This document shows positions 33,153 through 38,104 of a DNA stretch of 38,104 nucleotides, in pieces. The stretch comes from Hyphomonas sp. TMED17 (GTDB lineage: Bacteria > Pseudomonadota > Alphaproteobacteria > Caulobacterales > Hyphomonadaceae): assembly GCA_002172915.1 (NCBI GenBank), contig NHBW01000005.1, forward strand, positions 362,197-400,300, written 5' to 3'. Each line of letters opens with the position of its first letter. Positions within the stretch are counted from its first letter, which is position 1. The position numbers and the translations under genes are program-made. The notes under the pieces are model-generated. The model worked only from the letters and a program-made list of their open reading frames with translations, had not been told where the DNA came from and did not search any database.

Positions 33153-33281
33153 ATCTAACCCAAGTCCAACTACATTCGGCTTCCGTTCAGATTATGGACA
33201 CTATAAAACAGCTTGGATAGACTGAATTCTATCGTTAGACTTTTCGATATCAATTTTCTATCGCCGAAAAAGGAGATCGCC

Positions 33282-34754
33282 TTGCGCAAATTCACCACGC
33301 TTTCATCTTTCAGCTTAGCTGTCGCGTTGCTTGTTGCCGCACCGGTGCAAGCACAGTCATCGGCATCATCAGGCGCATACCAGGCCGGCTTGCCGTCGGG
33401 TTTCAACTTCGGATCGAATAAGGGCGAGTACGCCAATGATGATGATTGCGATGATGCCCGCTTCCACGCTGACGGCGATAATTTCAGCTATAAGCGCGAA
33501 CATGTCCTTGCCGACGCTGCCGACTGTCAGGCTGCTGTCGCGGCTGGCACCTCGTCCCTCATACTGGATTTTGGCGATGATAGCGGCGACTACGCCAATG
33601 ATGGCGAATGTGACGATAACCGTTTCACCGGCTCTGGCCGCTCGATCCTGACAACCGACAGTCATATCAAAGCCGACGCCAGCGATTGTATTGCAGCCTA
33701 TCGGGCTGGCACTATTGATCGCCCGAGCAACAGCTTTGCGGACCTCGTATTTGGTAACAATAGTGGCTCCTATGCGAATGATGATGATTGTGACGATGCC
33801 CGTTTCCATACCGATGGGGATAATTACAATTACAAACGCGAACATGTTCTGGCAGACGCCAATGATTGTCGCGCAGCCGTTGCCGCAGGCGAAGTATCGC
33901 TCGTGCTCGATTTTGGAGATGATAGCGGCGAATATGCCAATGATGGCGAGTGTGATGATAATCGCTTTACCGGCGCCGGTCGGTCTGCCCTGAGCAGCAA
34001 TAGCCATGTTTCGGCTGACGCCAGCGACTGCGTAGCAGCTTACCGCGCTGGTACGATTGATCGCGGCGCGACCGTATTCTCCGACCTCGTATATGGCGAT
34101 AATAGCGGCTCATATGCTAATGACGATGATTGTGATGACGCGCGGTTCCACAGCGATGGCGACAATGTCAACTATAAGCGTGAGCATGTCCTCGCAGACG
34201 CTTCAGACTGCCGCGCCGCTGTCGCATCCGGTGAAGTAACCCTTCTACTCGATTTCGGAAACGATACTGGCGAATATGCCAATGATGGCGAGTGTGACGA
34301 CAGCCGCTTCACCGGCTCGGGCCGTTCATCACTGACTTCAAACAGTCATGTCGGATCCGACGCCAGCGATTGCGTAGCCGCCTACCGCGATGGCACGATC
34401 AACCGCTCTGCCGGACCACCTTCCGGAAGCATCCGTTATGGTAATAATAGCGGCTCCTACGCCAATGATAATGATTGCGATGATGCCCGCTTCCACGCTG
34501 ACGGTGATAGCTACAATTATAAACGTCAACATGTCCTGGCCGACGCCAATGATTGTCGCGCAGCCGTTGCCGCTGGCGAAGTCCGCCTGTTGCTTGATTT
34601 CGGAAATGACAGTGGCGACTACACTAATGACAATGAGTGCGACGATAATCGTTTCACCGGTGCTGGCCGCTCAATTCTGACGAGCGACAGTCAAGTACGG
34701 CGTGACGCCAGCGACTGTATTGCCGCCTATCGCGAAGGACGTCTTGATCGATAG
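33282..34754 (+). CDS. secreted Asp/Asn-rich tandem-repeat protein
   Basis: The start is TTG 33282, with AGGAG 6 nt upstream; it gives a textbook signal peptide (about 1-25, ending PVQAQ). The 490-residue product is otherwise four tandem repeats of about 114 residues starting near residues 41, 155, 269 and 384. Each repeat has an A half (YANDDDCDDARFHADGDN) and a B half (YANDGECDDNRFTG). All eight halves share G-x-Y-x-N-D-x-x-C-D-D-x-R-F and a later D-A-x-D-C-x-A-A, so each half has two cysteines, 16 in all, suited to eight intra-unit disulphides. The acidic loops could bind calcium, but no EF-hand or RTX consensus is present. I know no function. A hairpin follows the stop. Confidence 0.88.
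   Translation: MRKFTTLSSFSLAVALLVAAPVQAQSSASSGAYQAGLPSGFNFGSNKGEYANDDDCDDARFHADGDNFSYKREHVLADAADCQAAVAAGTSSLILDFGDDSGDYANDGECDDNRFTGSGRSILTTDSHIKADASDCIAAYRAGTIDRPSNSFADLVFGNNSGSYANDDDCDDARFHTDGDNYNYKREHVLADANDCRAAVAAGEVSLVLDFGDDSGEYANDGECDDNRFTGAGRSALSSNSHVSADASDCVAAYRAGTIDRGATVFSDLVYGDNSGSYANDDDCDDARFHSDGDNVNYKREHVLADASDCRAAVASGEVTLLLDFGNDTGEYANDGECDDSRFTGSGRSSLTSNSHVGSDASDCVAAYRDGTINRSAGPPSGSIRYGNNSGSYANDNDCDDARFHADGDSYNYKRQHVLADANDCRAAVAAGEVRLLLDFGNDSGDYTNDNECDDNRFTGAGRSILTSDSQVRRDASDCIAAYREGRLDR
33402..34754 (+). repeat. four tandem ~342-bp coding repeats
   Basis: The period is 342, 342 and 345 bp, measured at the codon for F/Y before the first G of each A half (33408, 33750, 34092, 34437). 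Long identical blocks are shared between non-adjacent copies: 34 nt between copies 1 and 4 (33442-33475, 34471-34504), 32 nt between 2 and 4 (33855-33886, 34542-34573), and 29 nt between 2 and 3 (33927-33955, 34269-34297). Confidence 0.9.
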
Positions 34755-34776
34755 CCGAAGCGATCAGCTATCCTTT
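34750..34776 (+). terminator. candidate terminator of the repeat-protein gene
   Basis: GATAGC (34750-34755) pairs with GCTATC (34767-34772) around an 11-nt loop, followed by CTTTT. It spans the stop codons of both the repeat protein and the converging arfB. Confidence 0.5.
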
Positions 34777-35195
34777 TCGACTTTTTCGCGCAGCGCCTTG
34801 ATCTGCGATCTCTGTTTCTTGGCGTCTAGACGCCGCCGGATCGACCCCAGGGTCGGTCTGGTGGCGATCCGCCGCTTCGGCGGCTGCAGCACCGAGCGAA
34901 GCATTTCGGCCAGGCGCTGACGCGCGGCTACCCTGTTGAGAGCCTGCGTGCGATGCGCATTCGCTTCGATCACCAGCTCGCCCGAGCGTGTTAAACGCGC
35001 GCCATATTTCTTTTTGAAACGAGCTTTGACCGCTGCCGGCAACGTGCTCGTTTCAACAAACCAGCGCAACTGAACCGCCGTTGATACCTTGTTGACATTC
35101 TGTCCGCCCGGACCCGATGCACGGACGAATTGCTCGCTATATTCCCAATGCGGAATACTGACCGAATTCGACACAATGATGTCGTTCTCTTTCAA
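34764..35195 (-). CDS. arfB: alternative ribosome rescue factor ArfB (peptidyl-tRNA hydrolase)
   Basis: ArfB frees ribosomes stalled on mRNAs without a stop codon by hydrolysing peptidyl-tRNA. The 143 residues contain the catalytic GGQ in RASGPGGQNVNKVSTAV near residues 26-42 and a basic C-terminal tail (RRRLDAKKQRSQIKALREK) that fits the mRNA channel. The length is usual for ArfB and far below that of RF1 or RF2. The start is TTG 35193-35195, supported by GGAG 7 nt upstream. It converges on the repeat-protein gene with a 9-bp gap. Confidence 0.92.
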   Translation of the reverse strand: MKENDIIVSNSVSIPHWEYSEQFVRASGPGGQNVNKVSTAVQLRWFVETSTLPAAVKARFKKKYGARLTRSGELVIEANAHRTQALNRVAARQRLAEMLRSVLQPPKRRIATRPTLGSIRRRLDAKKQRSQIKALREKVEKDS

Positions 35196-35633
35196 TGGCC
35201 GGCTCCACTCAGCGCTAGACGCGACAGGCTAACATATTTCCATTTATACAATTTGTCGCTGATACCACGATGACAAGGCCCGCCCCTGCCGGATCAGCCG
35301 ACGTCACGACACCGCCGCACTATAATGGCAAGACCGAGCAGGACAAATTATTGGTAAAACGCTGGCGACCCGGCCCGCAACACCGCTTTCTCGACGCCAT
35401 TATCAGCTGACACGCCTCGTCCGGCATGAAGCTCGCGCCGGTCAATCCGAACAATCCGAACAATCTAAAATCATTCCAGAAATGTCTCCCAATCGCTCGA
35501 AAATCCAGCGCTCTGGCAGGAACAGCGGCAGATTGACCGATCGAGGTATTTTTCAGCCAAGAAGGTTTCAATCATGCCGACTCATGTTTAGCTAGTAAGG
35601 CCTGCCGTGCGGCGGGTTAATTGTTCAACAACT
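35196..35633. other. noncoding or decayed stretch between arfB and the small gene
   Basis: No confident gene. On the minus strand an ATG near 35575 opens MIETFLAEKYLDRS, and a protein-like run VNLPLFLPERWIFERLGDIS continues in another frame, which would need one frameshift; this may be a gene remnant. A 46-codon plus-strand frame at 35270-35410 has no ribosome site. A 9-bp tandem repeat (AATCCGAAC, twice) lies near 35447. A CCTGCC/GGCGGG hairpin (35601-35616) sits before the small gene. Confidence 0.35.
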
Positions 35634-35649
35634 GAAAGGAGGTGATCCA
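35634..35649 (+). promoter_or_regulatory. extended, near-complete anti-SD complement (ribosome binding site)
   Basis: GAAAGGAGGTGATCCA is complementary to about 16 nt at the 3' end of alphaproteobacterial 16S rRNA. AGGAGG ends 7 nt before ATG 35650. No other gene in the window has a site this long; most have 4-7 matched bases. Confidence 0.85.
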
Positions 35650-35730
35650 ATGTCGAGTGAGAAAACAGGTAAGGCGATTGGATTTGTTTGTCTTGGTGGT
35701 CTTGTGGAGCAGCCTCTAGACGCCATTTAA
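35650..35730 (+). CDS. 26-residue small ORF with exceptional ribosome binding site
   Basis: ATG to TAA encodes 26 residues, beginning MSSEKTGKAIGFVCLGG and ending in LVEQPLDAI. It has a charged N-terminus, a short hydrophobic middle with one cysteine (C14) and an acidic end; it is too short and polar for a clear membrane span or signal peptide. I recognise no family. It is supported by the exceptional upstream site and by a strong plus-strand terminator 60 bp past its stop, with two hairpins between. It could be a small protein, a leader peptide, or the coding part of a dual-function RNA. No clear promoter was found; the transcript may start near 35570-35600. Confidence 0.6.
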   Translation: MSSEKTGKAIGFVCLGGLVEQPLDAI

Positions 35731-35739
35731 GTCAAGTGT

Positions 35740-35786
35740 GACAGCCCGTGTTGAACGCTGTCGAAATTCAAGAGCCAAGCCGGCTC
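35740..35786 (+). ncRNA. structured 3' region of the small transcript
   Basis: Two hairpins follow the small ORF before the terminator: GACAGC/GCTGTC (35740-35745, 35757-35762) and GAGCC/GGCTC (35772-35776, 35782-35786). With the terminator they form a chain of three stem-loops, as in many small regulatory RNAs. The RNA call is inference. Confidence 0.4.
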
Positions 35787-35789
35787 ACG

Positions 35790-35818
35790 AAGGCCATCCC
35801 TGGCGGGATGGCCTTTTT
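35790..35818 (+). terminator. Rho-independent terminator of the small gene
   Basis: Perfect 11-bp stem AAGGCCATCCC/GGGATGGCCTT with a TGGC loop, then TTT on the plus strand. On the minus strand the stem is followed by CGTGAG, so it serves the plus-strand transcript rather than uvrB. Confidence 0.92.
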
Positions 35819-35840
35819 CATGTTTGAAGATCGCTCATCG

Positions 35841-38027
35841 TTACAAACCGAGATCGAGCTCGCGCAATTTTTTGATCTCGTCCCGTAGACTTGCCGCTTC
35901 TTCAAATTCAAGATTGGCTGCCGCATCCCGCATTTTTGTTTCAAGTGCAGCGATTGCAGCCTGCATATTATGCCCTGCAGCCGGCTGAAAGACCGCCTTA
36001 TCTTCCGCAACTTCTTTTAACCGACGCGATTTTCCGCCCTTAAGCTGCTGCGAACGCCGGTCAGAGCGCTCCCCGAACTGCCCGAGAATATCGGCAATTT
36101 CCCGTACAATCGTCTTGGGGGTGATATTCTGTACCTGGTTATAATTATGCTGCTTTTCCCGACGTCTTTCGGTTTCATCGATAGCGCGCTGCATCGACGC
36201 CGTTATTTTATCGCCGTACAGGATAACTCTGGCCTCGGCATTCCGTGCCGCGCGGCCAATGGTTTGAACAAGGCTCGTTTCCGACCGTAAAAAGCCTTCC
36301 TTGTCGGCATCGAGGATCCCGACCAGCCCACATTCCGGAATATCAAGGCCCTCTCTTAGCAGGTTGATCCCAACCAGAACATCAAACGTGCCAAGCCGTA
36401 AATCACGGATGATTTCGATACGTTCAATCGTATCGATATCCGAATGCATATAGCGCACCCGCACGCCCTGCTCGCGCAGATATTCGGTAAGGTCTTCAGC
36501 CATTTTTTTAGTTAGAGTCGTTACCAGAACACGATGTCCACGCTCGACAGTTTGCCATATTTCAGCCAGCAAATCATCAATCTGGTTGGTAGTACCAGTT
36601 GACACCGGGCGAACCTCTACCGGCGGGTCAAGCAAGCCGGTCGGCCGAATGACCTGCTCGGTAAAGACCCCGCTTGTACGTTCTAACTCCCACTTACCCG
36701 GCGTTGCAGAAACAAACACGCTTTGCGGCCGCATTGCGTCCCATTCTTCGAATTTCAGCGGACGGTTATCCAGACAGCTCGGCAAGCGGAACCCGTATTC
36801 CGACAAGGTCCGTTTGCGATTAAAGTCGCCACGATACATGCCACCAATCTGCGGCACGGTCTGATGGCTCTCATCTGCAAAGACCAATGCATTGTCGGGA
36901 AGATACTCGAACATTGTCGGTGGCGGCTCACCCGGCTTTCGTCCGGTCAGATAGCGGGAATAATTCTCGATACCGTTGCAAGATCCGGTCGCCATCAGCA
37001 TTTCGATATCATACTGAACCCGCTGCTCGATGCGCTGTGCCTCAAGCAGTTTTCCGTCGGCCTCAAACCGTTTAATTGTCGATGATAATTCTGTCTTGAT
37101 GCTCTCTATCGCCTGATTAAGAGTCGGGCGCGGTGTCACATAATGACTGTTAGCATAAAGCTTAATTGCTGGCAGAGACTGTATCTTACGCCCCGTCAGC
37201 GGATCAAACTCGACAATCGACTCCAGCTCGTCACCGAAAAAGGACAATTTCCATGCCCGGTCTTCATAATGGGCCGGAAAAATATCAAGGACATCGCCTT
37301 TGATCCGGAAACTACCGCGCGAAAAAGAAATATCATTCCTATCATATTGCAGCTCGACCAGAATCTGCGCCACCTGCCGGGGATCAATCTGCTGACCGGC
37401 TTCAATCTTTCGCGTCATCGACGTATAGGTTTCAACCGAGCCAATGCCATAAATACATGATACAGAGGCAACGATTATGACATCGTCCCGTTCGAGAATC
37501 GAGCGGGTCGCCGAATGCCGCATCCGGTCAATGGCCTCATTGATCGAACTTTCCTTCTCGATGTAAAGATCGCGCCGCGGGACATAAGCCTCAGGCTGAT
37601 AATAGTCATAATACGAAACAAAATACTCGACCGCATTATCAGGAAAAAAGGCTTTGAACTCGCCGTATAATTGCGCCGCCAGCGTTTTATTCGGCGCCAA
37701 TATCAACGCTGGCCGCTGCGTCGCTTCGATAATTTTGGCCATTGTAAAAGTTTTCCCGGTACCCGTCGCCCCGAGCAGGACCTGGTCGCGGTCACCGCCA
37801 TTGATGCCAGCGACCAGCTCAGGAATAGCGGTCGTTTGATCACCGGCAGCATCATAAGGGGACTCTACCCGGAACGCCTTACCGCCTTCCAGCTTTTCCC
37901 ACTCCCGGTCTGGCCGGTGCGGGGTCCATTCGCTGCTCGGCAAGCCACCAACGGCATCACGCGCCGCCCCGTCCGACAATGATAAGGGGGTGGAAACTGA
38001 AACATTCTGGTCCGGTGTCGTTGTCAT
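35841..38027 (-). CDS. uvrB: excinuclease ABC subunit B
   Basis: UvrB verifies DNA damage delivered by UvrA and loads UvrC in nucleotide excision repair. From ATG 38027 ([11 protein letters not shown]) it has 728 residues; a TTG seven codons upstream is possible, and neither start has a good ribosome site. Present are Walker A GATGTGKT, the beta-hairpin [15 protein letters not shown] that threads between strands, the Walker B motif [17 protein letters not shown], helicase motifs [18 protein letters not shown] and QTIGRAARN, and the C-terminal UVR motif that binds UvrC (last 40 residues). An N-terminal extension of about 45 residues precedes the usual start of the fold. No alphaproteobacterial LexA box (GTTC-N7-GTTC) was seen upstream. 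Confidence 0.97.
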
Positions 38028-38104
38028 ACACAGAATGTAGAATGGCAACGCGGAATCGCAACATGTCCGCCAGTTTAAAATACGATCTATCGCAAAACAA
38101 TAAA

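Follow-up and report, generated by a model that had tools for sequence, protein, structure and literature searches.

A CC2171-type RNA gene with an apparently selected reading frame behind an extended Shine-Dalgarno sequence in Hyphomonas sp. TMED17

Why should an intergenic element carry a ribosome-binding site complementary to the 16S rRNA tail as far as its start codon, when the frame that follows has only 26 codons? The element lies on the plus strand of the window, by which we mean the whole 38,104-nt stretch of Hyphomonas sp. TMED17 DNA that was analysed (Table 1). A sequence-only reading had proposed an ORF behind a Shine-Dalgarno (SD) sequence matching about 16 nt of the 16S tail, placed between two minus-strand genes, and had taken a plain small protein gene as its simplest explanation. 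The placement and the features held: GAAAGGAGGTGATCCA is an exact complement to 16 nt of the tail and abuts the ATG, the ORF is confirmed at 26 codons, and the neighbouring arfB-like gene and uvrB are both on the minus strand. The explanation fared less well, as we describe below.

Table 1. Features of the locus, in window coordinates
Feature	Position	Strand	Remarks
Promoter-like conserved block	35560..35595	+	Alignment A1 (17 sequences); relatives approximately CTTTCATTAGGC-CGAGTCATGCTTA; promoter function putative
Small 5' hairpin GCCTGCC..GGCGGGT, 5' of the SD	35600..35617	+	Predicted fold of the window stretch
Extended SD, complementary to the 16S 3' tail as far as the start codon	35634..35649	+	
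26-codon ORF MSSEKTGKAIGFVCLGGLVEQPLDAI, stop TAA	35650..35730	+	
P1 5' strand: TCG, bulged A, GTGAG	35653..35661	+	Codons 2-4 in the window
P2 hairpin TGGAG-CAGC-CTCTA	35705..35718	+	Loop preceded by a G 59 nt downstream of the start-codon A
P1 3' strand CTCAC	35784..35788	+	Partner of GTGAG at 35657-35661
Intrinsic terminator, 12-pair stem then T run	35789..35816	+	
arfB-like ribosome-rescue gene, RF-1 domain	34764-35195	-	
uvrB	35841-38048	-	

The locus and its ribosome-binding site

Besides the SD, the relatives in alignment A1 (n=17) share CAACA upstream, AGTGAGAAAC after the start, GAGCAGCCTC, CTCAC and the terminator; the small 5' hairpin is variable in sequence among them. The promoter-like block holds GACTC at 35579-35583 in the window, GANTCATG is present in 18 of 30 distinct upstream stretches, and two more have GANTC before GTG. 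GANTC is a methylation site. A consensus scan of 35100-35900 gave no plus-strand sigma-70 match. Further upstream, on the plus strand at 33213-34754, the window carries a 513-aa ORF built from several Asp/Asn/Cys-rich repeats that resemble one another (self matches at 73-77% and, in one case, 40%), whose single Pfam match, Arr-ms (PF12120), is barely above the cut-off at 27.2 versus 25 bits, with no single stretch passing.

The 16-mer of the SD has no second exact copy in the 2.45-Mb assembly (90.79% complete), and its place is the sole one in the window even when up to three mismatches are allowed; since at least one place at that tolerance turned up in 34 of 100 shuffles, it is the exactness of the match that counts and not a loose likeness. 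Its duplex with the tail UGGAUCACCUCCUUUCU has a computed energy of -29.6 kcal/mol, the best of 3502 ATG, GTG or TTG places in the window, the next-strongest non-overlapping place reaching -18.0 kcal/mol. The reverse match, the end of a 16S gene, is absent from the TMED17 assembly, so the tail sequence comes from 16S loci of Alphaproteobacteria that had themselves been chosen with this SD motif. Against circularity, an SD-independent search used the stretch from codon 2 onwards as query: 46 of 101 genomes match at E 0.001, and in the remaining 55 the element may be missing or diverged. Across the best 30 of the 46 matching genomes (two genera, window included), where the SD was not bait, GAAAGGAGGTGATCC stands before the start in 30 of 30 loci. 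Debris of a 16S gene was rejected as an origin: the likeness to the 16S complement ends after 16 nt, and the flanks are conserved as a separate element.

Class members that were found by model R1 (described below) and lack the exact motif extend this comparison. Relaxed to a pattern fixing GGAGGTG and NTGTC, the motif fits 36 of 40 fetched loci, with L343, L371, L372 and L374 outside. The 15-mer of these 36 loci carries 58 changes, of which 33 still pair with the tail as G.U (15 A>G, 18 C>T), counts that are open to inflation by relatedness and transition bias. The remaining changes do not pair: 14 sit within the final four bases and 11 at the opening two. The extended SD looks to be selected as a pairing. 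Strong docking need not equal strong translation, given that in E. coli, according to PMC2176067, a six-base SD outperforms shorter or longer ones.

The fold predicted for the element in the window leaves the start codon largely unpaired (paired at 0.18); the SD core is half paired (0.58), chiefly through a local hairpin of three pairs. SD sequestration by an internal anti-SD was rejected as a general mechanism on the strength of that value and of full SD pairing (at least 0.98) in 10 of 94 folds only: L025, L051, L088, L124, L171, L175, L192, L194, L195 and L202. These ten use an internal pyrimidine-rich stretch, and six of them are of the L051 type. An internal anti-SD mimic such as CACCUCC lies about 93-132 nt past the SD in L025, L051, L088, L124, L192 and L194, with full SD pairing predicted; such loci are a possible self-sequestering version of the element.

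Spread in the class and kinship with CC2171

With the 219-bp stretch as query, 94 of 101 genomes match at a loose E-value of 1, and within the genus 27 of 29 do so at 4e-20 or better. The motif of SD plus start codon occurs in 83 of 387 Alphaproteobacteria, at one place per genome, against 1 of 387 for a reversed control; L193, L199 and L215, among the 83 motif genomes, were dropped as chance hits. A stricter motif was found in 36 of 299 genomes of the phylum, that is, 36 of 113 in the class and 0 of 186 other Pseudomonadota. Model R1, built from alignment A2, some of whose rows come from genomes on which R1 was then run, matches 134 of 387 genomes at E 0.01 and 110 at E 1e-4; only the 110 are counted as good, the other 24 having a best E above 1e-4 and many being partial from model position ~26-32. 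Two low-E matches per genome were seen in G446 (L344 and L345) and G110 (L377 and L204), with mostly one elsewhere. R1 also matches in MAGs labelled Gemmatimonadetes, Phycisphaerales and Acidobacteria (L053, 43.8 bits; L134, 32.9; L099, 25.6). We do not claim presence beyond Alphaproteobacteria: these three loci were picked by the SD motif, and binning error is possible.

The Rfam family RF01867 (Caulobacter sRNA CC2171) matches the window at 38.3 bits (E 9.9e-7) over model positions 1-159, and gives no match there at its gathering threshold of 75 bits. A relaxed Rfam scan matched RF01867 in 7 of 7 relatives, two of them above the cut-off (L137 at 88.5 bits, L103 at 82.9) and the rest at 33-50, and a second such scan in 7 of 8, L245 of the same genus not being among them. 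Searching with the RF01867 model itself gave a match at E 0.01 in 75 of the 289 class genomes, 10 of these above the cut-off; among 14 control genomes, two (Caulobacter vibrioides and Deinobacterium chartae) gave a weak or strong match, one above the cut-off. Judged by these scores, the window element is a divergent relative of CC2171; being homologous yet below the curated family score, it is called a variant here.

Reading frame and fold among the relatives

All counts given here are raw member counts that ignore relatedness, and L053, L134, L016 and L209 (contig end or doubtful, L209 being matched by R1) are left out of the frame, P1-anchor, GCARCCY, P2 and fold counts. In the search of relatives that the sequence-only reading had proposed, the ORF is 26 codons long in all 29 close relatives that are complete, with all three stop codons in use, and the terminator is kept along with the SD. 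The comparison of synonymous and nonsynonymous change that it had also proposed gave a more qualified answer, a pN/pS of 0.59 over codons 7-25 versus 0.78 and 0.90 in the other frames, and a peptide that is only weakly conserved. In 73 of 75 non-redundant members no stop interrupts the frame for at least 17 codons, compared with 52.8 ± 3.8 when codons 7-17 are shuffled (maximum 61 in 500 shuffles), which disfavours a chance ORF; the other two frames are open in 37 and 36. Because the conserved P1 sequence itself places early stops in another frame, we also give codons 7-17 separately, where frame 0 is open in 73 of 75, frame 1 in 44 and frame 2 in 61. The members' ORFs are 13 to 39 codons long, most of them 18-36, apart from five with 55-58 codons (L218, L219, L228, L231 and L232) whose product, as judged by eye, looks secreted or signal-peptide-like. 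None of five peptides tried, four from this longer group, has a Pfam match, and peptides of different families have little in common beyond Met-Ser, the Ser codon of which sits in P1. The reading frame looks selected and the peptide weakly so, with the pN/pS of 0.59 and the five longer ORFs allowing room for peptide function.

Compared with 200 shuffles, the stretch has a better fold than 197 (z -2.78). The two hairpins of the sequence-only reading are better described as a helix P1, a hairpin P2 and a longer body, and its terminator is present with 12 pairs instead of 11. In P1, codons 2-5 pair with a stretch at the foot of the terminator; the pair probability in the window is 0.98, with two of the three outer pairs broken (GAA for GGA). 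Strands set by sequence anchors (119 members, 93 with an anchor, 56 distinct strand pairs; the window, with GAA for GGA, has none) pair at 175 of 280 positions versus 124.9 ± 7.1 when shuffled, the top of 5000 shuffles being 153; the register, with one bulged base, was set after P1 had already been seen. The 39 rows of A2 were likewise chosen after P1 was seen, and its covariation test leans towards P1: 80.2% of P1 cells pair versus 64.9 ± 1.5 shuffled, and the covariation score is 0.450 versus 0.212 ± 0.020, slid versions reaching at most 0.145. All six inner pairs change on both sides and the three outer pairs never do. Two of five P1 measures on A2 (pairs changed on both sides, further pair types) are not above shuffles, and RNAalifold on A2 recovered the terminator and not P1. 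The five core pairs are all present in 43 of 93 anchored members, and the predicted P1 probability is at least 0.5 in 45 of 94 members and below 0.05 in 41.

P2 is a G-CARC-C hairpin that lies 57-59 nt past the start in 29 of 99 members and 53-56 nt past it in four (33 in total), its stem forming 116 of 124 pairs versus 94.5 ± 3.3 shuffled. The motif GCARCCY occurs in 34 of 99 members versus 4 of 294 control stretches, 19 times in one frame, 13 in the second and two in the third, ten of these occurrences lying over or past the stop codon, which argues for an RNA element rather than a peptide motif. Taken together, the RNA fold looks selected, unevenly.

Competing readings and known systems

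Our favoured reading, which we hold tentatively and at somewhat less than an even chance, makes the element an independent RNA gene of the CC2171 kind, mostly present once in a genome, whose product is a dual-function RNA, both structured and translated. On its 5' leader a 30S subunit would dock via extended pairing of the SD with the 16S tail; the start codon touches P1, and initiation would open this helix, which holds the RNA closed against the terminator; the ribosome would then read about 25 codons through or up to P2 and terminate within the folded body. The conserved output would be this cycle of docking, opening and refolding, the peptide being secondary in most clades. Of this picture, conservation underpins the extended SD with its 16S pairing, the frame that stays open, P1 (in roughly half the members), P2 (in one third), the terminator and the existence as a separate gene; it also underpins the view that ribosomes are expected to initiate on this folded RNA. 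We infer the remodelling of the RNA by translation, its role as the function, a partner that would be an mRNA, a protein or the ribosome pool, and any consequence for the cell. Our confidence in the dual-function reading is held back by the finding that barely half of the members have a complete P1. We consider unlikely the further step that CC2171-type RNAs are sensors of ribosome state, in which the leader would read free 30S subunits with intact 16S 3' ends by a duplex along the full tail and initiation would flip P1, and hence stability or activity, to report translation capacity.

The plain micro-protein mRNA of the sequence-only reading, in which the peptide is the function, the fold shields the message and the SD serves synthesis, is a doubtful but serious contender: it would account for the constant ORF length with its three stop codons, the lower pN/pS, the frame open in nearly all members and the longer signal-peptide-like products, but not for peptides that share little past Met-Ser, a P2 conserved in different frames and after the stop, or the want of a Pfam match for the peptides tried. 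A translated-looking ORF behind an extreme SD does stand by conservation; a peptide barely conserved across the class, set against a conserved SD and frame-independent RNA elements, is what a plain small protein gene leaves unexplained. The converse, an ordinary base-pairing regulatory sRNA whose ORF is incidental or merely regulates it, agrees with the Rfam type of CC2171 ('Gene; sRNA') and with an element that is intergenic, structured, terminator-ended and without a fixed neighbour, but such an sRNA needs neither an open frame nor an extended SD beside a start codon, and we think it distinctly unlikely. A decoy that ties up 30S subunits or covers the anti-SD and is not productively translated would fit the full-tail complementarity and the predicted locking of window codons 2-4 in P1; we regard it as very improbable, given a conserved start codon and open frame and given that a single-gene RNA would presumably need extreme abundance to titrate ribosomes. 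Least probable is a leader or attenuator of arfB or uvrB. Of 20 own-family loci (L002-L021), 15 have arfB no more than 1.5 kb away, and in L025, L051, L088, L109 and L124 it follows the RNA on the same strand, but in the window arfB is divergent from and uvrB convergent to the RNA, arfB appears among 30 class loci (L139-L168) only at the own-family L155-L157, and a terminator-like hairpin closes the element in most loci examined; strand and synteny thus disfavour it. arfB is also near the RNA in L090 and is absent nearby in most other families. By a crude ORF call the widest cluster of neighbour proteins spans 10 loci only, and so the element is most likely a gene of its own.

We suggest, from the comparison of relatives, that the CC2171-type 'non-coding' RNA may in fact be translated. 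A catalogued 'non-coding' family appears to hold a conserved short frame, with little conserved peptide, behind a ribosome site that matches the 16S tail, and the curated cut-off of RF01867 covers a small part of the relatives. If it is the act of translation that is conserved, and not the peptide, this would be a clean, testable RNA gene whose function is ribosome engagement.

CC2171 was reportedly first described, and given its name, by Landt et al. in 2008, a study cited in PMC3927594. The Rfam entry lists an sRNA and names no ORF and no function, and our literature search found no paper describing the ORF, the 16S-tail match or the function of a CC2171-type RNA. Passages of PMC11701678 and PMC5596092 use CC2171/RF01867 in the sense of this RNA, the latter for M. 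huakuii MH_s33, a 215-nt RNA-seq product listed as RF01867; PMC5521070 does not mention Caulobacter. The Rfam 15 paper mentions RF01867 a single time, among the improved families, for a gain of one covarying pair. In Caulobacter ribosome profiling, passages of Schrader et al. (PMC4117421) describe intergenic ncRNA regions as untranslated and two earlier predicted ncRNAs, which they leave unnamed, as translated, and translation of CC2171 may already be known from their supplement.

The window RNA shares with RF01867 the order of parts, CAAC..GAAAGGAGGUGAUCCA, NUGUC, a closing helix beside the start codon and a terminator hairpin. It differs in its score, with many non-standard pairs in the alignment, in the sequence of P1 (GUGAG/CUCAC versus CAUUGUC/GACAAUG), and in the inner hairpin of the consensus, which is deleted in the window alignment, whereas the window has P2 with its CARC loop. 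Extended SD pairing that runs on towards the start codon is also described for Staphylococcus aureus, where, in the passages of PMC13009471 that bear on it, G:U for A:U in the start-proximal part kept start selection, comparable to the change from GGTGAT to GGTGGT here; there, however, it is how ordinary mRNAs of a distant phylum initiate, and here it belongs to one structured RNA gene. Closer in phylogeny is rnTrpL/peTrpL of Sinorhizobium meliloti, according to parts of PMC10117765 a small alphaproteobacterial RNA that is both translated and regulatory, the combination we infer for the window RNA; rnTrpL is leaderless and corresponds to the trp attenuator, whereas the window RNA is probably its own gene and carries an extreme SD.
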